DNA from: Jonesiaceae bacterium BS-20
GTDB lineage: Bacteria; Actinomycetota; Actinomycetes; Actinomycetales; Cellulomonadaceae
NCBI GenBank assembly: GCA_039995105.1
Contig: CP146203.1
Coordinates: 1,178,001-1,242,000, forward strand
Length of the DNA: 64,000 bases
Reading direction: 5' to 3'
Positions 41,471 to 57,104 of this stretch are shown here, in pieces. The notes under the pieces were generated by a model. The model was given only the letters and a program-made list of their open reading frames with translations, was not told the DNA's origin and did no database searches. Position numbers and translations under genes: made by a program. Numbering within the stretch: position 1 is the first letter of the stretch; each line of letters opens with the position of its first letter.

Positions 41471-42442
41471 CTACTGTAATTCGTCTAGGACGGCCCAGAA
41501 TGTCTTGCGCAGAGCCTTACGGACCTCGAACAGATCGGTGTCAGCCTCGCCAATAATCTGTGCGCAGTCCTTGAGTAGGACACGGTCAATGGCGGGGGCA
41601 AGCTGCGGCCGGTTAGCCAAGACGCTTTCGAGTTCTGTTTGGGTGGTGCTGGAGTACCAGGAGTGTGCCACGCGCTTGCCAATTTCCTCAGCGGACTCAA
41701 TCAGCGCCTGTAGTTCTGCGGCGGTGCCCTCATAACTGGATATGCCATCGGTGCTCGTAGTAAACACGACGTTTTTAACGGGTGCGGGTGGTTCAACCTC
41801 ATACCTATGGGCTGACATGATAGTTGGCTTTGGAATAGCCGAGCGTGGAAGTGATGGGACACTACCCGGTAAGGAAGCAGGGGAGGGCGTGCCTATCTTG
41901 AGGAAGGTTGTGTCCAACAGGGAATCTGGAATCTGCTCAATTGAATCTGCAGCCAGTGCGAGGTGCTCGGCCACTCCCTTGTACCCCAACCGGGCGGTAA
42001 TGTCCTTAATACCCAGGACCATGACCTTCATGCCCATCGCTTGGGCTTCTTCAACGGCCTCGGTTAAATCGTCATCACCTGAGATCAGGTAGGCGTGGGA
42101 AACCGCGCGAGTACGAGCCAGAGATACCAAGTCCAAGGCCAGACGCAAGTCCACGCCTTTTTGCTCTCCGTAGTAGTTGATCCGGCCCAGCCGAACCTTA
42201 ACCCCCGGAATTAAACCAATTTTCTTGTGCTCTTCGGTGAACAGCCCATCGCGTGAAGCGTCATACCAGTAGGTGCGCAAGACGGATTTGGAACTCAGCG
42301 ACTCAACGGTAGAAACCAAGCCTTCAATCAGCGTTTCGTACTGAACCGTAATGGCTGCCCGCAGCGTTGTACTCGCCGTCCGGTAGCCAGCAACCGCGTA
42401 CAGGAATCCAGCGTCTACAAGAATCACGGATTTAGGGCTCAT
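41471..42442 (-). CDS. NYN-domain (LabA/DUF88-like) putative ribonuclease
   Basis: The 323-residue protein begins with a PIN-like NYN domain: SVILVDAGFLYAVAGY with the first Asp, QKGVDLRLALDLVSLA and SGDDDLTEAVEEAQAMGMKVMVLG with the conserved acidic cluster, ending around residue 185. These acids bind a metal in the RNase-type fold. Residues 190-323 are a Pro/Ser linker plus a helical domain (VLANRPQLAPAIDRVLLKDC) I do not recognise. It is monocistronic beside a candidate defence island. Confidence 0.85.
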   Translation of the reverse strand: MSPKSVILVDAGFLYAVAGYRTASTTLRAAITVQYETLIEGLVSTVESLSSKSVLRTYWYDASRDGLFTEEHKKIGLIPGVKVRLGRINYYGEQKGVDLRLALDLVSLARTRAVSHAYLISGDDDLTEAVEEAQAMGMKVMVLGIKDITARLGYKGVAEHLALAADSIEQIPDSLLDTTFLKIGTPSPASLPGSVPSLPRSAIPKPTIMSAHRYEVEPPAPVKNVVFTTSTDGISSYEGTAAELQALIESAEEIGKRVAHSWYSSTTQTELESVLANRPQLAPAIDRVLLKDCAQIIGEADTDLFEVRKALRKTFWAVLDELQ

Positions 42443-42718
42443 ACTTGCCCATCTTAGACAACTCCCGAGCAAATCCAGCCCGCTTGACTAGGCGTTTCAG
42501 AATAGAAACCAAATTTTGTGGGACTAAAGGCTTTTATATCTTCTCCATCGCAGATTGGTCCTGATGATCGCGTTGAATGAAGACTCCTCAACACGCGTCT
42601 GGGGCTTTGCAACCGACCCTGGAAGTCTGATTAGCTAGCCCTGGTATTTGTTCTCCCCCGTAGAGACGTGGTGGACCAACTATTTTGCTGAAGTGATAGC
42701 CAGCGGCGAAGGGCCCTT

Positions 42719-43114
42719 GTGAAAAAAGAAATTGTTGTTGTAGGCGCTGTTATTACAGATGGCAAACTCGTGCTCTGCGCCCAGCGCGGTTCTGACATGG
42801 CGCTTCCAGGTATGTGGGAGTTCCCAGGTGGGAAACTTGAGCAAGGCGAAACGGATCAGCAAGCGCTGGTTCGGGAAATTGCTGAGGAACTTGAGTGCGA
42901 AATTCAAGTTGGTAACCGTATCACCACAACTCGATATGAATATGACTTTGGTTTTGTCACTCTCACTACCTACTACGCAACCGTTACGACCAGGTCTCCA
43001 GTGACTACCGAACACGCTGAATTGCGCTGGGTGGAGGCCCCCAGTCTCGATGCCCTTGAGTGGGCACCTGCAGATATTCCTGCAGTAGAGCTCATCAAGA
43101 GGGAGTTAGCCTAA
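42719..43114 (+). CDS. MutT-like (deoxy)nucleoside triphosphate pyrophosphohydrolase
   Basis: This 131-residue protein has the NUDIX box GKLEQGETDQQALVREIAEEL (21 residues including the first G; positions about 38-58), preceded by ALPGMWEFPGG, the mark of MutT and CTP pyrophosphohydrolases. It hydrolyses oxidised or modified (d)NTPs. GTG start with little ribosome binding site. The stop and the start of the helicase gene overlap in TAATG, so the two proteins are almost certainly made together, suggesting a joint task rather than plain nucleotide-pool cleaning. Confidence 0.9.
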   Translation: MKKEIVVVGAVITDGKLVLCAQRGSDMALPGMWEFPGGKLEQGETDQQALVREIAEELECEIQVGNRITTTRYEYDFGFVTLTTYYATVTTRSPVTTEHAELRWVEAPSLDALEWAPADIPAVELIKRELA

Positions 43115-46035
43115 TGTTCCCAGGTTCTCAAGTCTTTGGGAAGGACCTTGAGTTTGGGTTTATCAATGACTCGGTAATTTCTCAACGGCTCTTCCACCCG
43201 CTTCTGATCTCAAATTCGCACGACAACACAATGCTGCGAGCGCTAAGGCATGAATTACGCAAGAGCGACTCATTTGTTTTCTCGGTAGCGTTCATTACCC
43301 CGGGGGCTTTGGCTCTTCTCAAGCAGGAACTGCTCGACTTCACCGGTCACGGTGTCATCTTGACCTCTACCTATCTGGCGTTCAATTCACCGGAGACCTT
43401 TAGGGAACTCGCGAACCTCGAAAATGTGGAGGTTCGCGTTTTCGAGTCCGACGACAGTGCGGGTTTCCATGCCAAGGGGTACGTGTTCCGTAAGGAACAT
43501 GAGGTTACGGCAATTGTTGGAAGCTCCAACCTGACCAGCAACGCGCTGTTGAAAAACCAAGAGTGGAATATCCGGTTCTCTGCCCGCCATGATGGGGACA
43601 TTGTGAGTCAACTGGAACGGGAGATTCAGGCGCAGCATGCACTGAGCCGAGTTCTCACACAGGACTGGATTGACCGTTATGAGGTGGCGTTCCTAGCCCA
43701 GGAACAAGCAAACCCTCAATCACGAGTAATTGTTCCCTCAATCTATGACGAGCAGGGCAACCTGTTTGATAACTCAGAGATTCAACCCAACCAGATGCAG
43801 GTTGAAGCCCTTCAGGCTCTGGCGGACCTCCGAGCCCGTGGGGAGAAACGTGGCATTATTGTGTCCGCGACCGGCACGGGAAAAACTATCTTGTCTGCCC
43901 TCGACGTCCGTCAGGTCGCCCCCAAAAGAATGCTCTTCATCGTCCACCGTGAGCAGATCTTGGACCGCGCGATGCGAGATTATGAGCGGGTTTTGGATTG
44001 CGATCCTCAGGACCTGGGCAAACTCACTGGCAATGAACGAACTAGTGACCGGCGGTACGTATTTGCGACCGTCCAATCTTTGTCCAAGCCAGAAACGTTG
44101 GCGCAGTTCGGACCTACTGACTTTGACTACATCCTCATCGACGAGGTCCACAAAGCTGGTGCGGAAAGTTACAAGCGCTTACTAGACCACTTCGACCCCG
44201 AGTTCTTCCTTGGGATGACTGCGACTCCTGAGCGTACCGATGGCATCAATATCTTTGAACTCTTCGACTTCAATGTGCCTTACGAGATCCGTTTGCAGGA
44301 GGCTCTCGAAGAAGAGATGCTTTGTCCGTTCCACTACTACGGGGTATCCGACTACACGGACTCTCACGGACAGGTCATCACCGATACCGCTGATCTAGGC
44401 AAGCTTGTTTCGAACGAGCGTATTGAGTACGTGCTGCAAGCTATTAAGAAGTATGGCCATGCAGGGCGTCCGGTTAAGGGGCTCATCTTCTGTAGCCGTA
44501 CCGAAGAAGCCCAAGCGATCTCCGCGGAGCTAAATGTCCGGACGCTCCATGGCAAGCTGCTGCGGACCGTAGCCTTAACCGGCATGGCCTCGATTGAGGA
44601 ACGGGAATCGGTCGTAGAGCAACTTGAAGCCGGCGAACTCGACTACATCGTTACCGTTGACATCTTCAACGAGGGTATCGATATTCCAAGCGTCAATCAG
44701 GTAGTCATGCTGAGACAGACCAAGTCAAGTATTATCTTCGCCCAGCAACTTGGCCGTGGCCTCCGTAAGGACATTGGCAAGGATTTTCTCGTTGTCATCG
44801 ACTTTATTGGTAACTACGCCAATAACTTCCTTATCCCTATCGCGTTGTTCGGAGACATGAGCCTTTCTAAGGACTCGATCCGGCGCAATATGATCAATGC
44901 GGATGAGGCCGGAACAATCGCGGGTATCTCTAGCATTAGCTTTGACGAAGTTGCTAAGGAACTTGTCTTCAACGCAATAGCCGCAACGAAACTGGATAGT
45001 TTTGCCCGTCTCAAAGAGGCATTTAATTTGCTCAAGGGCAGGCTCGGGACAACACCTAAACTGACAGACTTTGCGCGGTTTGCAACGGTTGATCCTGTAG
45101 TAATTGCCTCGGCCTCCAGTAACTATCACCGGTTCCTGCTTCGTCTCAAGCAGGTAGTGACTCCAATTTCGGTGATGGCAGACCAGTTCTTGTCCTTCAT
45201 GACCACAGAACTACTCAATGGAAAGCGCCCCCATGAGCTGCTCTTGTTGCAGGCTTTGCTCGAACGTGGTGAATTGTCGATCCATGAGTACGACCAAATT
45301 CTTGCGCAGGCTATGTCCCCACGAGACGGCGCGGTAATTGAGTCAGTCCGAAAGATCCTCACCCTCGAGTTTTTCACCTCCGCGGAGCAGCTTAAGTATG
45401 GCGCAACGCCTTTGATCGAGATTGATGGAGACGCAATCAGTCTCTCTACATCCTTATTTGAATGTCTGACATTAGAACCGGAATTTTACGCTCAGGTCAG
45501 CGACCTTATCGAAGCCGGATTGTTTACGTCCAGGCATCGTTTCAAGACCGATGAAGCTCTGCTAGTAGGGGAGCGTTACTCCCGCAAAGACGTATGCCGC
45601 CTTCTGAACTGGGAATCAAACCAGCAGAGCACAATCTACGGGTACAAGGTTGATAAGGCGACGGGGACCTGCCCGATCTTCATCACCTATCACAAGGACG
45701 ATGAGATCGATGCGAGTGTGAAGTACCAGGATGAGTTTCTGGATCCCTCTCACCTGACGTGGTTCACTCGCAGTCGACGTACCCTCAAGAGCAAAGAAGT
45801 CCAGGCAATCGTAGAGAATCGGCCTGTGATCCACGTGTTCGCCAAGAAGGATGATGCTGAGGGGACAGATTTCTTCTACCTTGGCACGGCGTCAAGTTCC
45901 GCAGCACAGGAAACCCGCATGGGAGAGGACGAAGCTGCGATGCTTCCTGTAGTGAAGATGCAACTAAAATTATCGGGACCAATTGAGTCCAGCCTGTATG
46001 AGTACCTTGTGACGAGTGGCACGAACAACGAGTAG
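43114..46035 (+). CDS. PLD-like nuclease/SF2 helicase/DUF3427 protein
   Basis: This 973-residue protein has three parts. Residues 1-190 are a phospholipase D-like nuclease domain (HAKGYVF from His119, then GSSNLTSNALL). Residues 230-560 are an SF2 helicase: Walker A ATGTGKT (about 252), DEVH box near 343, TATPERTDG near 369, and motif VI QQLGRGLRK near 544. The rest is the DUF3427 domain with YSRKDVCRLLNWESNQQSTIYG and CPIFITYHKDDE. ATG 43114 follows AGAGGGAG and overlaps the mutT stop. Such proteins occur next to NUDIX genes and in restriction or defence islands; a role against foreign DNA is plausible but unproven. Confidence 0.92.
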   Translation: MFPGSQVFGKDLEFGFINDSVISQRLFHPLLISNSHDNTMLRALRHELRKSDSFVFSVAFITPGALALLKQELLDFTGHGVILTSTYLAFNSPETFRELANLENVEVRVFESDDSAGFHAKGYVFRKEHEVTAIVGSSNLTSNALLKNQEWNIRFSARHDGDIVSQLEREIQAQHALSRVLTQDWIDRYEVAFLAQEQANPQSRVIVPSIYDEQGNLFDNSEIQPNQMQVEALQALADLRARGEKRGIIVSATGTGKTILSALDVRQVAPKRMLFIVHREQILDRAMRDYERVLDCDPQDLGKLTGNERTSDRRYVFATVQSLSKPETLAQFGPTDFDYILIDEVHKAGAESYKRLLDHFDPEFFLGMTATPERTDGINIFELFDFNVPYEIRLQEALEEEMLCPFHYYGVSDYTDSHGQVITDTADLGKLVSNERIEYVLQAIKKYGHAGRPVKGLIFCSRTEEAQAISAELNVRTLHGKLLRTVALTGMASIEERESVVEQLEAGELDYIVTVDIFNEGIDIPSVNQVVMLRQTKSSIIFAQQLGRGLRKDIGKDFLVVIDFIGNYANNFLIPIALFGDMSLSKDSIRRNMINADEAGTIAGISSISFDEVAKELVFNAIAATKLDSFARLKEAFNLLKGRLGTTPKLTDFARFATVDPVVIASASSNYHRFLLRLKQVVTPISVMADQFLSFMTTELLNGKRPHELLLLQALLERGELSIHEYDQILAQAMSPRDGAVIESVRKILTLEFFTSAEQLKYGATPLIEIDGDAISLSTSLFECLTLEPEFYAQVSDLIEAGLFTSRHRFKTDEALLVGERYSRKDVCRLLNWESNQQSTIYGYKVDKATGTCPIFITYHKDDEIDASVKYQDEFLDPSHLTWFTRSRRTLKSKEVQAIVENRPVIHVFAKKDDAEGTDFFYLGTASSSAAQETRMGEDEAAMLPVVKMQLKLSGPIESSLYEYLVTSGTNNE

Positions 46036-46080
46036 GTGCGCACTGGCCCACCATATGAGTTTCTGATGCTGCAAATATCG

Positions 46081-46902
46081 CTACGAAATTGAGAACTGCG
46101 CAATGAGGGCTTCTCTGCGCCCAAAGTCCGAGGTGCGTGGCCCGGTGGTAGGGAGGGTAAAGTTACGGGCCAGGGATTTCATGTCTTGGTTCTCCCACCT
46201 ATCGGCAAGATCAGCCGCATTTTCGGGTGACAATTGGGCAGCGGCATCTAATGCAAGTAGCTTAGCCGCGGCAAGGTCACTATCCATACCTAGACCTTCA
46301 AGAATCTTGAAGCCCTCATCAGTGTCGTAAAGATGATCATGAACTTCCTTTGATTCTTGGTACCAAAACAGGGTTAGTGCAAGGTCCTGAGCATCTCTGT
46401 AGTGTCCGTACACGGATCGGTCTAGCCAGGACCGCATCTTCAGAACTGTATATCCGGCAGGTTGTGGCAACTTAACGGTGGAGTGATTCGGTAGTTCTAA
46501 GGGGAGTGCATTCTGGAATACATCCTGAAACCCGAATACATTGAGGTCTTCACCTCGAGCGGTGGGGTGGGAGATACCGTCAGGATCCTCCACCCCACCG
46601 AATGGCATGATGTCCACAGGATGTTCTGCGATGAGATACCGGATGCCATTACTGCCAATTCGTTTGAAAGTGCTTTCAATTCGTTCTGAAACTATCCAAT
46701 CGTTGATGGCGATTCCCAAGTCAATATCAGTAGTTGCCCGCAGTGGAAACCTGTGTCCAAATCCCGCATGCAAAATATCGCGGCAACTGGCTCCGACTAC
46801 AAGAACGTTCTCCGGTTTTAACCCCACTGAATCCTTGAGTTTTTCAATGACTATGGAGATGCCATCGTATAGCCGAGGGTCTACCGTACTGACGTCAATC
46901 AC
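46081..46902 (-). CDS. AbiEii-like nucleotidyltransferase (putative toxin)
   Basis: The 273-residue protein has a DNA polymerase beta-type nucleotidyltransferase core: VVGASCRDILHAG (G-S type motif) and the acidic pair in ATTDIDLGIAI, then a third acid in PVDIMPFGG. The rest is helical, and a conserved KMRSWLDRSVYGHYRDAQDLALTL region fits AbiEii and MenAT-like proteins, which transfer nucleotides to tRNA or other targets. Its ATG overlaps the antitoxin stop by 4 nt. It is convergent with the helicase gene, 45 nt away. Confidence 0.75.
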   Translation of the reverse strand: MIDVSTVDPRLYDGISIVIEKLKDSVGLKPENVLVVGASCRDILHAGFGHRFPLRATTDIDLGIAINDWIVSERIESTFKRIGSNGIRYLIAEHPVDIMPFGGVEDPDGISHPTARGEDLNVFGFQDVFQNALPLELPNHSTVKLPQPAGYTVLKMRSWLDRSVYGHYRDAQDLALTLFWYQESKEVHDHLYDTDEGFKILEGLGMDSDLAAAKLLALDAAAQLSPENAADLADRWENQDMKSLARNFTLPTTGPRTSDFGRREALIAQFSIS

Positions 46903-47894
46903 GAGGTAGCTTCTTTAAGAAAAATCTCTGCTGCTTCACGTTGACGATCATCTCCCGAAGCAAGGAGATCCGAGTAGACCAACAGCCATGGAGCTGAGTA
47001 GATGCCAGGTGAATCTGCTTCTCTGGGAGCTTGCCAGAACTTTTCCCGAAGGAAAATGTTCGGCTGATCATCATTATGGCGCCAGCGGTGAGAACGGATT
47101 AAGTCGGTCGGAGCTTTGGTTGAATATAGAAGTAGAGTTTCAGGACGCAGAAGTTCAGGAACCGCAGCCTCACCACTGATATAGATTGCCTCGTTATTGG
47201 AGATTAAGTCATCTATGGGGCCTGAGAAGTACTTGGTGAATTTACTTGAACCTAAGCCTGACGGATATGCAGCGACCCATAGATTGATTAGCTGTTCAGG
47301 ACTGTGAAGGTGATGACTTCTTGTTTCATCGATGAATCCATATTGACTAAGCAGATCAAGAGTTCTTTGTGCTTGTCCCAATGAAACGCCAGACGTGGTT
47401 GCAATGTTCCTTACCGGTCCGTGGAGTAAGTCCGGCCATGTGAGAATGGCAAAGATGACTTGAGCTCGTTTGGGGCTGAATAAGTTGACCCCGCCGCGGT
47501 GCATCGGTGCATCCGACAATGATGGATTTCGGGTTGGAGCTCTTCGTCCGCGAACGTCTAGGTGTACGCCATCGAAGGTGATGAAAGCGTTACCTGATTG
47601 ATCGAGATAGCAAATACCTAACTCCCTGAACAAGGTTGCACTACGTTCAGTTATTCGTGGGCCAAGCAGCAGTAGTCGTTCCGGCGTCAAAGATTGCTTT
47701 AGAAATCCTTCCAACGTGGACCCGGTCATTGAGGGGGAGTAAGCAATTGTGAAGTTTGCAGAACCATGCTTGTGGGCAATCGTTGCATGAGCAGTACTTT
47801 GCTCCAGTAGTTCACCTAGGTTGAGTGGGCTTTCCAAAGCGAGACCAAACTCGTCAAACCGGTCTGCTAAGTTCTTAGCTAGGCTTTCTTTCAC
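46899..47894 (-). CDS. AbiEi-like antitoxin/transcriptional regulator
   Basis: The 331-residue protein contains a winged helix in the middle (AQVIFAILTWPDLLHGPVRNIATTSGVSLGQAQRTLDLLSQYGFI) and a C-terminal domain (YISGEAAVPELLRPETLLLYS) seen in AbiEi-type antitoxins of type IV toxin-antitoxin systems. AbiEi proteins bind inverted repeats at their promoter and repress the pair, while neutralising AbiEii. The GTG start has AAGGTGAT 8 nt upstream. Codon use is more AT-rich than in the flanking core genes, in keeping with transfer. Confidence 0.72.
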   Translation of the reverse strand: MKESLAKNLADRFDEFGLALESPLNLGELLEQSTAHATIAHKHGSANFTIAYSPSMTGSTLEGFLKQSLTPERLLLLGPRITERSATLFRELGICYLDQSGNAFITFDGVHLDVRGRRAPTRNPSLSDAPMHRGGVNLFSPKRAQVIFAILTWPDLLHGPVRNIATTSGVSLGQAQRTLDLLSQYGFIDETRSHHLHSPEQLINLWVAAYPSGLGSSKFTKYFSGPIDDLISNNEAIYISGEAAVPELLRPETLLLYSTKAPTDLIRSHRWRHNDDQPNIFLREKFWQAPREADSPGIYSAPWLLVYSDLLASGDDRQREAAEIFLKEATS

Positions 47895-54879: not shown

Positions 54880-57104
54880 ATGGCCAAATTACCCGTCACA
54901 ACTTCCGTGGCGCCCGGCCATGAGATTTCCTTTTGGGCACTATCCGCTGCCCAAGCCCTCGCGGCAAACGATTCGAACGCGGACGGCCTGAGTACTTCGC
55001 AGGTCGAATCGCGGTTAGCGCAGTCTGGACGTAACGAGCTGCCTACGGTTGCACGGGATCCACTGTGGAAGCGGATTGCCCGGCAGTTCGACAACATCTT
55101 GATCTATATCCTGTTAATCTCCGCCGGCCTCAAAGCCATCTTGGGAGATTGGATCGATGTTGTTGTGATCGTTGCGGTCACCATCATCAATGCGGCAATT
55201 GGGTTCATTCAGGAAGGTAAAGCCGAAGGCTCGCTTGACGCTATCCGAACCATGCTGGCTCCGCATGCGACGGCCAAACGAGATGGGCACTGGGTAACTC
55301 TGCCCGCCACCGAGCTGGTTCCAGGTGATGTTGTTCGCGTGAAATCGGGGGACCTGATCCCCGCAGACTTGCGGCTCATCAATTCGGTGAACCGGAGATC
55401 TTCCATGACTTTACACCGGCTGAATTATTGTCAGCCACCATCGGATTAGCCGTCGCCGCAGTTCCAGAGGGGCTGGCCGCACTGGTGACGGTCACCCTGG
55501 CGCTTGGCGTGCAGCAGATGGCTAAGCGTCGGGCGATTAGCCGCCGGCTCCCGGCGGTAGAAACCCTGGGCTCGGTCACCAAGATCTGCTCAGACAAGAC
55601 CGGAACGCTCACCCAAAACGAAATGACCGTGCGCACGGTTCGCACCTACCAGCAGTCCTACGAAGTAACCGGGGTTGGCTACGCGCCGATCGGAGAAGTA
55701 CGAGGGAGCACCGGTGAGCACTTTGCCAGTGATTCGTCCCAGTCCCACCAAAACCTCAAAGCCCTAACCGCCGTAGTTTCCTTGTGTAATGACTCAACCA
55801 TTAGCGAACAGGGCCAGCTTGTGGGGGAGCCAACCGAGGGAGCGCTGCAAACCTTTGCGCTCAAGACCAAACTTCACCTTGGCTCGTGGAGCCGCCTTGA
55901 TCTGATTCCATTCGAGTCAGTTAACAAGTTCATGGTCACCTTGGACGAGGGACCCCAAACTTTAGAGCTTCCCCCAACCTCAGCGATTACCAAGTTGGAA
56001 CTCTGCGGGCTCGTAGGCATTGTTGACCCACCCCGCCCGGAGGCAGTAGCCGCAATCGCCAAATGCAAAAGCGCCGGGATCAAGGTCAAGATGATCACCG
56101 GCGACCACGCTGGAACAGCCCTGGCAATTAGCCGTGAGTTAGGCATCGTCAAAGCCTTAGACGCTAGGGTCCTGACCGGACCAGAACTTGAAGCGATGAC
56201 CACCGAGCAGCTCAAAGCAGTGGTCCAAGACGTGCACGTTTTTGCGCGCACTAGTCCCGAGCACAAGATTCGCATTGTCTCCGCGCTGCAATCCCACGGG
56301 GAGGTTGTGGCTATGACCGGCGACGGAGTCAACAATGCTCCCGCCCTGACCCAGGCTGATGTTGGGGTCGCCATGGGCATCAAGGGGACCGATGCCACCA
56401 AGGAAGCCGCAGACGTGGTGCTTGCCGATGACAACTTCGCCACGATTGAACGTGCGGTCGAGGAAGGCCGGCGCACCTACGATAATATTCGCAAGTCCGT
56501 CCTGTTCCTGCTCCCAACAAACGGCGCCCAGTCACTCGTGATCCTGGTGGCCATCACGTTTGGGCTCACCCTGCCGCTCCAACCCGTTCAAGTGTTGTGG
56601 ATCAACATGATCAGCGCGGTGACCCTTTCGCTCGCGCTTGCCTATGAGCCGGCTGAGCACAGCATCATGGCGCGCCCACCGCGGGATGTGAACGCACGGC
56701 TGGTGGACCGCCCCGCAATCGCACAGATTCTATTCATCTCCATCCTCATTGGGGTAGCAACGCTCATCATCTTCATTGCGGAGTTCAACAACGGGGCAAC
56801 GCTGGCTCAGGCGCAAACCGCTGCAGTAACGATGTTGGCCCTGGCCCAATTGGCGTATCTGTTTAGTTGCCGGTTCCTGACCGAGTCCAGCCTGACCTTG
56901 GACGTGTTGAAAGGGAACCGCATCATTTGGGTTTCCGCTGTCAGCTTGATCGCGCTGCAGATCAGCTACGTGTATCTACCGTTCATGAACACGTGGTTTG
57001 GCTCCGCACCTATCAGCGCCCGCCAATGGCTGGTCATGATCGGGGGAGCGATCGTGATCTTCCTGATCGCCGAGGCGAACAAATGGGTGGGGCGGCGCAG
57101 GTAA
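54880..57104 (+). pseudogene. Cation-transporting P-type (P2-like) ATPase broken by internal deletion and frame change
   Basis: Two frames make one damaged gene. 54880-55449 encodes the N-terminus (cation ATPase N domain, first helices, GDLIPADLRLI of the actuator). From about 55380-55404 the homology switches frame: HDFTPAELLSATIGLAVAAVPEG leads into the second frame, which runs to 57104 with DKTGTLT, GDGVNNAPALT and the C-terminal helices. The TGES actuator motif and the third helix region, roughly 100-150 residues by family comparison, are missing at the junction. Without TGES the enzyme cannot cycle. Alternatives are an assembly error at the junction or a very recent deletion, since both halves are otherwise clean. 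Confidence 0.88.

Follow-up and report, generated by a model that had tools for sequence, protein, structure and literature searches.

The protein taken by a sequence-only reading for a poorly described PLD-helicase-DUF3427 protein is, on full-length homology, a known one, a SauUSI-type Type IV restriction enzyme of the kind that depends on 5-methyl- or 5-hydroxymethylcytosine, and it is paired with a NUDIX hydrolase here and in its relatives. We propose, with about even confidence, that the two genes constitute a modification-dependent restriction module, in which SauUSI would cut modified DNA and the NUDIX hydrolase would clear modified dCTP. The features of the locus in the window (the whole 64,000-nt stretch of the BS-20 genome that was analysed) are given in Table 1.

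Table 1 Features of the NUDIX-SauUSI locus and its neighbours, in window coordinates
Feature	Position	Strand	Description
NYN-domain protein	41471..42472	-	NYN E 1.6e-11; chromosomal backbone, outside insert
NUDIX hydrolase	42719..43114	+	ORF, GTG start, 131 aa; Pfam NUDIX E 5.5e-16
TAATG stop/start overlap	43112..43116	+	SauUSI ATG uses last A of NUDIX stop; 1-base overlap
SauUSI-type Type IV restriction enzyme (predicted)	43114..46035	+	ORF, 973 aa; PLDc_2, ResIII, Helicase_C, DUF3427 (E 3.3e-86)
AbiEii/MenT-like nucleotidyltransferase	46081..46902	-	Plasmid homologues, medium-confidence model; neighbour outside NUDIX-SauUSI module
AbiEi_2 antitoxin-like protein	46899..47894	-	PF09952 E 1.7e-23; neighbour outside module

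The gene positions, the TAATG junction and the 45 nt between the convergent SauUSI and AbiE-like genes, as first read from the sequence, all agree with our ORF and domain calls. So do the housekeeping flanks, a POT peptide transporter being found by domain search on one side, and suf-type ORFs being recognized by eye from their translations on the other. The block looks like a lower-G+C insert between backbone genes; in the relative G038 the insert is absent and the NYN gene and aspA are directly adjacent.

Residues 8-952 of PDB 7clg, which is listed as 'Putative helicase' and which we take to be SauUSI, align collinearly with residues 8-966 of the window protein (E 3.9e-226), and the PADLOC mREase_IV model (PDLC03658) matches it over model positions 8-952 of 953 (E 4.3e-237); this full-length homology gives the domain order PLD, SF2 ATPase, coupler and SRA-like domain. 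The residues of the PLD nuclease (H119, K121, N139, E150) and of the SF2 ATPase (K257, D343-E344-V345-H346, R548, R551) are retained, as are, in the C-terminal DUF3427/SRA-like part, those of the 5mC pocket (Y844, F856, I857, D873, W883), published as Tyr831, Phe841, Ile842, Asp858 and Trp868 (residue roles from PMC7913695). Both the catalytic and the pocket residues are kept in nearly all of 81 sequences. In place of Glu126 of the published HxKx4E motif the window protein has Arg, and only 26/81 sequences have Glu. The equivalent of Met829, the residue that inserts into DNA in the published model, is Y842, a Tyr in 73/81. By homology, the window protein is predicted to be an ATP-dependent cutter of Sm5CNGS DNA.

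The NUDIX gene adjoins the SauUSI gene in all of the 80 GTDB loci, the best 80 of 467 SauUSI relatives, lying upstream in 76 and downstream in the four from Domibacillus. Adjacency was likewise found in a family sample (4/4 loci, 150 genomes) and in a phylum sample (7/7 loci, five of them convergent, 396 genomes), all 10 SauUSI genomes of the two samples together having an adjoining NUDIX; BS-20 itself is counted in both, and Timonella (G012 = L047) in the family and GTDB sets. The tightly coupled NUDIX-helicase module of defence type, for which the sequence-only reading had called for a co-occurrence check in other genomes, is thus borne out. The pairing occurs in three gene arrangements, with candidate one- or four-base start-stop overlaps in 49/76 NUDIX-first loci, and it was seen in 3/3 distant uninterrupted contigs whose SauUSI is 33-37% identical to that of the window, as well as in S. 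aureus-type DNA, where the NUDIX gene immediately precedes the SauUSI gene both in a phage-labelled contig (L125) and in a plasmid record (L123). Sister PLD-helicases (34 loci at E <= 1e-60, 28 from the phylum and six from the family sample) differ: a NUDIX gene was near only one of the 24 viewed with wider flanks, against 7/7 for SauUSI (Fisher p 3e-6), and none was seen within the 1.5-kb flanks available for five more. No NUDIX was found within 4 kb of a Fusobacterium SauUSI-like gene, nor, at the limit used, in the record of a very distant Acetoanaerobium match (H7, 28% identity). The only two loci from Pseudomonadota come from MAGs and may be mis-binned, since in one of them (L037) the NUDIX falls with Cryobacterium.

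That SauUSI is a gene carried by phages was considered and rejected, a viral contig scan having yielded four weak helicase-region relatives. The phage collection holds nine records with a SauUSI match, all unannotated, two of them S. aureus-type contigs; one phage match (H40, L290), kept outside every count, has an interrupted SauUSI-like gene with a NUDIX fragment just before it. Strong m5C methyltransferases are less frequent in SauUSI hosts (9/50) than in the comparison set (130/296; p 0.0005, uncorrected for ancestry and genome size), which speaks for the proposed module.

The neighbours had been read as further components. The AbiE-like genes plausibly form a type IV toxin-antitoxin pair, as had been claimed: an AbiEi-family antitoxin gene overlaps an AbiEii/MenT-type nucleotidyltransferase gene by 4 nt (46899-46902). 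The AbiEii-like partner, which matched nothing relevant in Pfam, PADLOC or NCBIfam, carries a nucleotidyltransferase motif and has plasmid homologues that are mostly annotated as AbiEii toxins and that stand beside AbiEi in 5/5 plasmid records inspected; its medium-confidence model (four sequences, three viral relatives having been found; mean pLDDT 69.8) matches MenT1 (Z 12.4). A single system in which the MutT and PLD-helicase proteins act with the AbiE pair and the NYN protein, which the location of all parts inside 6.5 kb in BS-20 might suggest, is nevertheless very improbable. AbiE-like genes accompany SauUSI in 0/80 loci (tblastn E <= 1e-4, flanks up to 5 kb) and the NYN gene in 1/80, 13 of these 80 loci being shorter than 12 kb; AbiEi homologues were found in 2/29 relatives, BS-20 counted. 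Together with the G038 synteny, this leads us to reject both as module parts: the AbiE-like pair is an incidental neighbour and the NYN gene, proposed earlier as a third component, is chromosomal backbone. What stands of the defence island is therefore the coupled NUDIX and helicase genes and the lower-G+C block, but not a joint system with AbiE and NYN.

The window NUDIX, by its sequence and fold matches, is NudG/MutT2-like. The PADLOC PDC-S07 model matches it over 128/135 positions (E 5.8e-52), and its top structure matches are MutT2 entries, the first being the 5mdCTP complex (Z 21.5), tied with the apo, dCTP and CMP entries and with BdRppH within 1 Z. The NUDIX motif GX5EX7REUXEE is present (G38, E44, R52, E53, E56 and E57, each in at least 91/92 sequences), with Glu59 at the place of the textbook Gly after EE. 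Asp119, which occurs in 92/92 SauUSI-linked NUDIX proteins and is shared with NudG and MutT2 (MutT has Asn), also occurs in 30/30 related NUDIX proteins that have no SauUSI link and is therefore a mark of the subfamily, not of the partnership; Asp or Asn at this position presumably relates to base choice. Among NCBIfam models, NF007834 (pyrimidine (deoxy)nucleoside triphosphate diphosphatase), presumably NudG, scores 94.3 bits and two MutT models 79.2 and 77.8, all below cut-off, and because NF007834 has an equivalog cut-off of 156 bits the protein is not filed as NudG itself. NudG, for which RefSeq gives the name 5-hydroxy-CTP diphosphatase, has a kcat/Km of 1.3e6 M-1 s-1 for 5-methyl-dCTP and 4.7e4 for CTP, and a table lists 2-OH-dATP, with genetic support, among its substrates (both from PMC5158307). 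We propose that the window NUDIX is a pyrophosphohydrolase of 5-methyl- and 5-hydroxymethyl-dCTP. MutT2 takes dCTP too, which, with the 2-OH-dATP entry and the RefSeq name of NudG, counts against this assignment. NUDIX matches that lie near genes identified by eye as pheT (L188) and gltX (L273) resemble housekeeping copies.

An ordinary MutT, clearing 8-oxo-dGTP made or incorporated during DNA repair after restriction, is a rather improbable alternative. Some relatives are annotated as MutT/8-oxo-dGTP diphosphatase, and the fold also matches strongly the E. coli MutT structure that contains 8-oxo-dGMP (Z 19.9); however, the NCBIfam ranking and Asp119 both speak against it, and it leaves unexplained why the linkage tracks SauUSI and not the sister PLD-helicases.

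Slightly less probable still is a regulatory or structural partner, a NUDIX protein that binds SauUSI or hydrolyses ATP, dATP or another nucleotide controlling it. The candidate overlaps and an HNH-NUDIX fusion (see below) are typical of interacting proteins, and distances among the SauUSI proteins correlate with those among their NUDIX partners (r 0.71 between the matrices, a value reached in 0/2000 permutations). On the other hand, the catalytic NUDIX residues are kept, and the convergent gene pairs, like the pairing of SauUSI with NUDIX proteins of more than one lineage, are better explained by common chemistry than by a fixed interface. Moreover, SauUSI by itself was active both in vitro and in E. 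coli (PMC3874153), so the NUDIX is not needed for cutting, a point that also counts against the proposed module; E. coli encodes its own NudG. A single clade of SauUSI-linked NUDIX proteins was rejected (p-AU 0.00028, 63 rows) on a short alignment that omitted L010, E. coli MutT and, for most of the GTDB set, four out of every five rows; gene linkage defined the group, but a quick tree had been inspected before the test.

In the module that we propose, the C-terminal SRA-like domain of SauUSI would bind DNA containing 5-methylcytosine or 5-hydroxymethylcytosine, the ATPase would translocate and the PLD nuclease would then cut. Binding, translocation and cutting have been shown in print for the S. 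aureus enzyme, and we infer the same activity for the window protein from full-length homology and conserved residues. The NUDIX would cleave 5-methyl-dCTP, and probably also 5-hydroxymethyl-dCTP, to the monophosphate; the modified cytosine might come from degraded foreign DNA or from phage synthesis, and cleaning the pool would keep it out of host DNA, which SauUSI would otherwise cut. Both this substrate and this purpose are what we infer for the NUDIX within the module. The sequence-only reading had a nucleotide-modifying or signalling enzyme feeding the helicase: signalling finds no echo in the nearest NUDIX relatives, which are pool-cleaning pyrophosphohydrolases, and modification came close, in that the NUDIX probably removes modified nucleotides. 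A second PDC-S07-like NUDIX gene lies elsewhere in 8/10 SauUSI genomes, which counts against the module and raises the question of why a dedicated copy is kept.

The same NUDIX type also occurs beside McrA-like HNH genes, as an HNH-NUDIX fusion protein in two genera, beside a 6yex homologue (E 4.9e-85) and at one McrC locus (G500). NUDIX (L272) and MazG-like (L119, L239) pool enzymes lie beside SLFN-g3 helicases of the same Pfam family. The best reading of these sequence matches is that one kind of putative pool cleaner has joined several modification-dependent types of nuclease that are unrelated to one another. A regular partnership with McrBC found no support: among the 33 genomes in which McrC was detected (E <= 1e-20), G500 alone has a PDC-S07 match (E <= 1e-32) nearby, a count that, at these thresholds, goes against a general partnership. 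No NUDIX was seen within 1.5 kb of 30 McrC loci, although flanks of this length would miss even the G500 case. The chance that modification-dependent restriction in general has a second arm acting on the nucleotide pool, in which the NUDIX serves SauUSI, McrA-like, EVE-HNH and occasionally McrBC nucleases as antidote or co-weapon, falls just short of even. Some loci would add a MazG-like pyrophosphohydrolase to the NudG/MutT2-like NUDIX.

The same chemistry could serve another purpose, the NUDIX mainly starving phages that use 5-methyl- or 5-hydroxymethyl-dCTP and SauUSI cutting whatever DNA is made. This we hold to be unlikely, though less so than the MutT and regulatory alternatives. It draws on the same linkage and substrate evidence as a guarding NUDIX and on the pool enzymes beside SLFN-g3 helicases, and phage routes to such dNTPs are known, to judge from titles (phage-induced 5-methyl-dCMP kinase, dCMP hydroxymethylase). 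Yet removal of the modified dNTPs would make it harder for SauUSI to recognize phage DNA, and the NUDIX-first order and the overlaps rather suggest a guard that is synthesized ahead of the nuclease. The NUDIX-first order is broken by the Domibacillus loci and the convergent cases.

Adjacency of NUDIX and SauUSI has been mentioned in passing before (PMC7641849, PMC12813430), the NUDIX being listed as PADLOC PDC-S07, which appears as a one-ORF phage defence candidate in a table in PMC11514479. Among the matches listed for the open-licence literature, we found adjacency remarks only and no function for the pairing. Work on SauUSI has so far treated it as a lone protein, and PDC-S07 figures as an unexplained candidate; the pairing is near-constant, is kept through changes of gene order and is rare at sister helicases, and the NUDIX recurs at unrelated nucleases of modification-dependent kinds. 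The two therefore become one question, namely whether the dNTP pool is policed for the mark that is attacked in DNA. If so, modification-dependent defence would have an overlooked second half, which would go some way to accounting for the ability of Type IV systems to spare their own cell and would be of importance for their transfer between hosts.

The window protein shares with SauUSI (7clg) the full-length collinear fold order, the PLD HxK, the SF2 motifs and the pocket residues; unlike S. aureus SauUSI, it is 20 residues longer and has Arg for Glu126, and its cutting and sequence specificity are predictions. The AbiE-like pair resembles AbiE/MenAT in its AbiEi_2 domain, nucleotidyltransferase motif, overlapping genes and MenT1-like fold, but has no PADLOC match at E <= 0.01 and is incidental to NUDIX-SauUSI. 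The NUDIX has the fold and Asp119 of NudG (Orf135) and MutT2; whereas these are taken as housekeeping pool cleaners, the window NUDIX, of predicted activity, is tied to a restriction gene, is sub-cut-off in NCBIfam and belongs to a type that is an extra copy in 8/10 genomes. PDC-S07, a one-ORF candidate elsewhere, is here the partner of SauUSI and of other nucleases. Type IV systems have no protective methylase. As in restriction-modification, host DNA must be free of the nuclease target, but restriction-modification protects it by methylating DNA, whereas the proposed NUDIX protection would act on the nucleotide pool.

The helicase was compared with known enzymes along its whole length. It matches PADLOC mREase_IV (E 4.3e-237) and, from end to end, PDB 7clg (E 3.9e-226), which we take to be SauUSI; a 953-aa protein on an S. 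aureus-type contig (L125) is consistent with that identification. H119, K121, the Walker A K257, DEVH (343-346) and motif VI are present in the window protein, and H119/K121, Walker A, DEVH and motif VI are conserved, with few exceptions, across 81 sequences. The methylcytosine pocket of SauUSI (Tyr831, Phe841, Ile842, Asp858 and Trp868; PMC7913695) has its equivalents in Y844, F856, I857, D873 and W883, and the position of Met829, which inserts into DNA in the model of that paper, is Tyr in the window protein and in 73 of the 81. According to that paper, SauUSI cleaves DNA with Sm5CNGS, 5mC or 5hmC. Because of the full-length homology and the retained catalytic and pocket residues, we read the helicase as a putative Type IV restriction enzyme.

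Genes of the candidate locus (positions within the window)
Feature	Position	Strand	Remark
NUDIX	42719-43114	+	open reading frame
SauUSI-type helicase	43114-46035	+	one-base overlap with NUDIX inside TAATG
AbiE-like pair	46081-46902, 46899-47894	-	convergent; 45 nt past helicase
NYN-domain gene	41471-42472	-	

The open reading frames of the sequence-only reading, including the TAATG overlap and the 45-nt convergent gap, are all present where it placed them, on a single 3.53-Mb contig. The four genes from NUDIX through AbiEi have a G+C content of 48.4-51.7%, and the NYN gene, the transporter and the suf-type stretch one of 54.8-57.8%. In a relative (G038) the NYN gene and aspA (named by eye) are separated by about 180 nt with none of the four genes in between; in Timonella senegalensis (G012, identical to L047), of the same family as the window genome, aspA, a POT transporter and NYN are contiguous in this order and likewise have none of the four genes among them, a separate NUDIX-SauUSI pair lying 2 kb past NYN. 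Given the lower G+C and these gene orders, the four genes resemble an insert, and the NYN gene is chromosomal backbone. The NYN gene, proposed as a third defence candidate, was found in only one (Timonella) of 80 related loci and is dropped. The AbiE-like pair, thought to be part of a joint system, was likewise set aside after a co-occurrence check, AbiE-like genes being found in 0/80 related loci. The gene at 46899-47894 (minus strand) has an AbiEi_2 domain match; the nucleotidyltransferase, modelled from four sequences (mean pLDDT 69.8), resembles MenT1 (Z 12.4) and, less closely, MenT3 (Z 8.8), and its homologues adjoin AbiEi in 5/5 records opened. We read this pair as a new but ordinary representative of a known type. 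Elsewhere in the window (54880-57104), an apparent single P-type cation ATPase (by eye) is split into two overlapping frames, 54880-55449 and 55428-57104.

Of 467 relatives in GTDB, the best 80 loci (mostly Actinomycetota, plus Bacillota and two Pseudomonadota MAGs) were examined, and in 80/80 a NUDIX gene is adjacent to SauUSI; it is upstream on the same strand in 76 and downstream on the same strand in four (Domibacillus), and in 49/76 the NUDIX stop shares one or four bases with a candidate SauUSI start. Among 150 family genomes there are four SauUSI-type loci (E <= 1e-170), all with NUDIX directly upstream, and among 396 phylum genomes seven, including the window's, all linked (two upstream, five convergent downstream). 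With the window counted a single time, the two samples give 10 genomes, and one of them, Timonella, is also among the 80. NUDIX stands beside SauUSI in five of the six best plasmid matches (H1, H2, H3, H5 and H6), the SauUSI gene being in pieces in H5 and H6. The sole uninterrupted exception among opened full-length cases is H4, from Fusobacterium vincentii (L122, 3920-6748), with no NUDIX match in the 4-kb flanks of its SauUSI-like gene; the record of a very distant plasmid match, H7, has no NUDIX match at E <= 1e-15. In the phage collection, NUDIX is one base upstream of SauUSI in L125, likewise upstream in H38/H64, judged from coordinates, and downstream in three distant fecal contigs (33-37% identity). 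An unannotated fecal contig (L290, 2533-6925) carries a distant SauUSI-like gene interrupted by a transposase-like ORF (by eye), immediately preceded by a NUDIX fragment.

NUDIX is rare beside sister PLD-helicases, which match chiefly the nuclease-ATPase part of SauUSI: it was found in 1/24 fetched loci, against 7/7 for SauUSI (Fisher p 3.0e-6), and a further case is among the phage records (L271). The NUDIX neighbours of sister helicases lie at 7005-7430 in L210 and 3384-3782 in L271.

SauUSI and NUDIX distances are correlated over 79 loci, one short NUDIX being left out (r 0.71; 0/2000 permutations as high), which could be explained by common descent alone. The tree test rejects a single clade of SauUSI-linked NUDIX proteins (p-AU 0.00028; at least 9 label changes), thus linked and unlinked copies have swapped places more than once. 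The SauUSI of [Zimmermannella] alba has an unusually distant NUDIX neighbour (L083, 4566-4961), with 41% identity in its best match to four queries and a place apart from the main linked set in a quick tree.

All NCBIfam scores of the NUDIX protein are below cut-off: NF006530 (general Nudix) scores 96.0 bits, NF007834 (pyrimidine (deoxy)nucleoside triphosphate diphosphatase), presumably the NudG model, 94.3, and MutT models score 79.2 and 77.8. Its top PDB sequence match is 5x1x, whose 127 printed residues are identical to an S. aureus plasmid protein (L123). The highest-scoring structure for the AlphaFold2 model (mean pLDDT 95.4) is the MutT2-5mdCTP complex (Z 21.5; rmsd 2.1 over 127 aligned residues), in a tie with MutT2 bound to dCMP, CMP, CDP or dCTP or empty (Z 21.2-20.9), a Rhodospirillum NUDIX protein (Z 21.0) and BdRppH (Z 20.6); MutT with 8-oxo-dGMP (Z 19.9) and E. 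coli Orf135/NudG (Z 19.2) follow. The substrate can therefore not be read from the fold alone. Asp119 is found in 92/92 SauUSI-linked NUDIX proteins, in NudG and in MutT2 (Asn in MutT), and also in 30/30 unlinked relatives, and is therefore a subfamily marker. In a table of PMC5158307, the kcat/Km of NudG is 1.3e6 M-1 s-1 with 5-methyl-dCTP against 4.7e4 with CTP; 2-OH-dATP is named there too, backed by genetic evidence. A second such NUDIX gene (E <= 1e-12) is present elsewhere in 8/10 SauUSI genomes, including the window's, hence the linked gene is an extra copy in most genomes.

The present data establish the structure of the genes, their homology, the NUDIX-SauUSI linkage, its scarcity next to sister helicases and its recurrence with other nucleases; what NUDIX acts on, and to what end, we infer. 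Most economically, NUDIX would clean the nucleotide pool of the very mark that the nuclease targets. It would keep 5-methyl/hydroxymethyl-dCTP out of this pool, and the clean pool would shield the genome from SauUSI; as SauUSI comes without a protective methylase, protection would result from exclusion of the modified dCTP. A strong m5C methyltransferase (PF00145, E <= 1e-25) is present in 9/50 SauUSI genomes (the Actinomycetota of the 80 loci) versus 130/296 class genomes (p 0.0005, ignoring ancestry and genome size). The window genome has no PF00145 match at E <= 1e-10, and 3/10 sampled SauUSI genomes have a partial one. This scarcity fits, as weak evidence, a host keeping its own DNA without the SauUSI target. 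Frames of ~560-790 codons matching just the first half of the methyltransferase model (E about 1e-17) were seen in many family genomes (G012, G033, G006, G017, G030 and others). In the closest rival explanation, NUDIX would starve phages that use 5-methyl/hydroxymethyl dNTPs. SauUSI works when expressed alone in E. coli (PMC3874153), an activity qualified by that host having its own NudG.

This NUDIX type recurs with other nucleases. A close NUDIX relative (E <= 1e-15) is present in 14 plasmid records, all of which were opened; they are not independent events, as L118, L232 and L233 are from one species and L117 and L234 from another. The partner is SauUSI in five and, in three P. megaterium records (L118, L232, L233), an HNH gene with a four-base overlap; a scan of the L118 gene matched PADLOC mREase_IV (E 1.6e-23) and the HNH part of a McrA structure, 6ghc (E 1.7e-22). 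In L121 (3924-5387), an mREase_IV-like HNH and a NUDIX of the PADLOC phage defence candidate PDC-S07 form a single fusion protein of 487 aa; a Niallia taxi record holds a relative that is 51% identical across 98% of its length. The remaining five partners are a full-length homologue (L120, E 4.9e-85) of the HNH endonuclease 6yex, presumably the EVE-HNH enzyme VcaM4I; an MrcB_N protein that weakly matches mREase_IV (L119); a ResIII-Eco57I protein (L117); a GmrSD_N protein with an adjoining restriction endonuclease (L234); and, in Selenomonas (L116), a GmrSD_N gene 1.3 kb off on the opposite strand. Genome G500 (L186, 5012-10066) has, in order on one strand, AAA_5 (McrB-like), McrC (PF10117, E 1.6e-40), NucS-like and NUDIX genes, the last 73% identical to a SauUSI-linked NUDIX protein; the 10.5 kb fetched contain neither SauUSI nor a PADLOC McrBC match, an apparent partner switch from SauUSI to McrBC. 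Eight phage-collection records have a NUDIX relative (E <= 1e-12): five with SauUSI, the sister helicase of L271, L273 (beside a gltX-like gene) and L272 (647-3058), where NUDIX directly follows an SLFN-g3 helicase (PADLOC PDC-S41, E 2.1e-277).

The SLFN-g3 helicase is the commonest family in the 80 loci besides SauUSI and NUDIX (10 loci), and is accompanied by a MazG-like gene in 7/80 (Pfam assignment made on L039 genes). The MazG-like enzyme is a second class of pool-cleaning enzyme at the same sites, and since the SLFN-g3 family is paired with MazG in L039, L119 and L239, it is possible that in L272 one pool enzyme was substituted for another. MazG-like pyrophosphohydrolase and SLFN-g3 genes lie beside NUDIX-SauUSI in L039 (2372-4451), L038, L040, L043, L044, L071 and L096, and also occur in L239 (6871-8951) and L119 (6656-8910), with L. 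plantarum among the hosts; the L239 helicase bears a GIY-YIG domain. Human dCTP pyrophosphatase 1 is a MazG-like enzyme. Its link to 5-methyl-dCTP metabolism is stated in the title of PMC4491611.

The open-licence literature, among the matches listed, held no functional proposal linking NUDIX/MutT to SauUSI, to Type IV or to modification-dependent restriction, and PMC7913695 mentions neither 'mutt' nor 'nudix'. A figure legend in PMC7641849 identifies the small 'DNA repair' proteins beside Streptococcus SauUSI homologues as MutT homologues, a brief remark on the adjacency also stands in PMC12813430, and PDC-S07 appears in a table of PMC11514479; by these printed remarks the NUDIX-SauUSI adjacency is partly known already, to which the present analysis adds the extent of the linkage, the sister-helicase control, the other partners and a proposed function.
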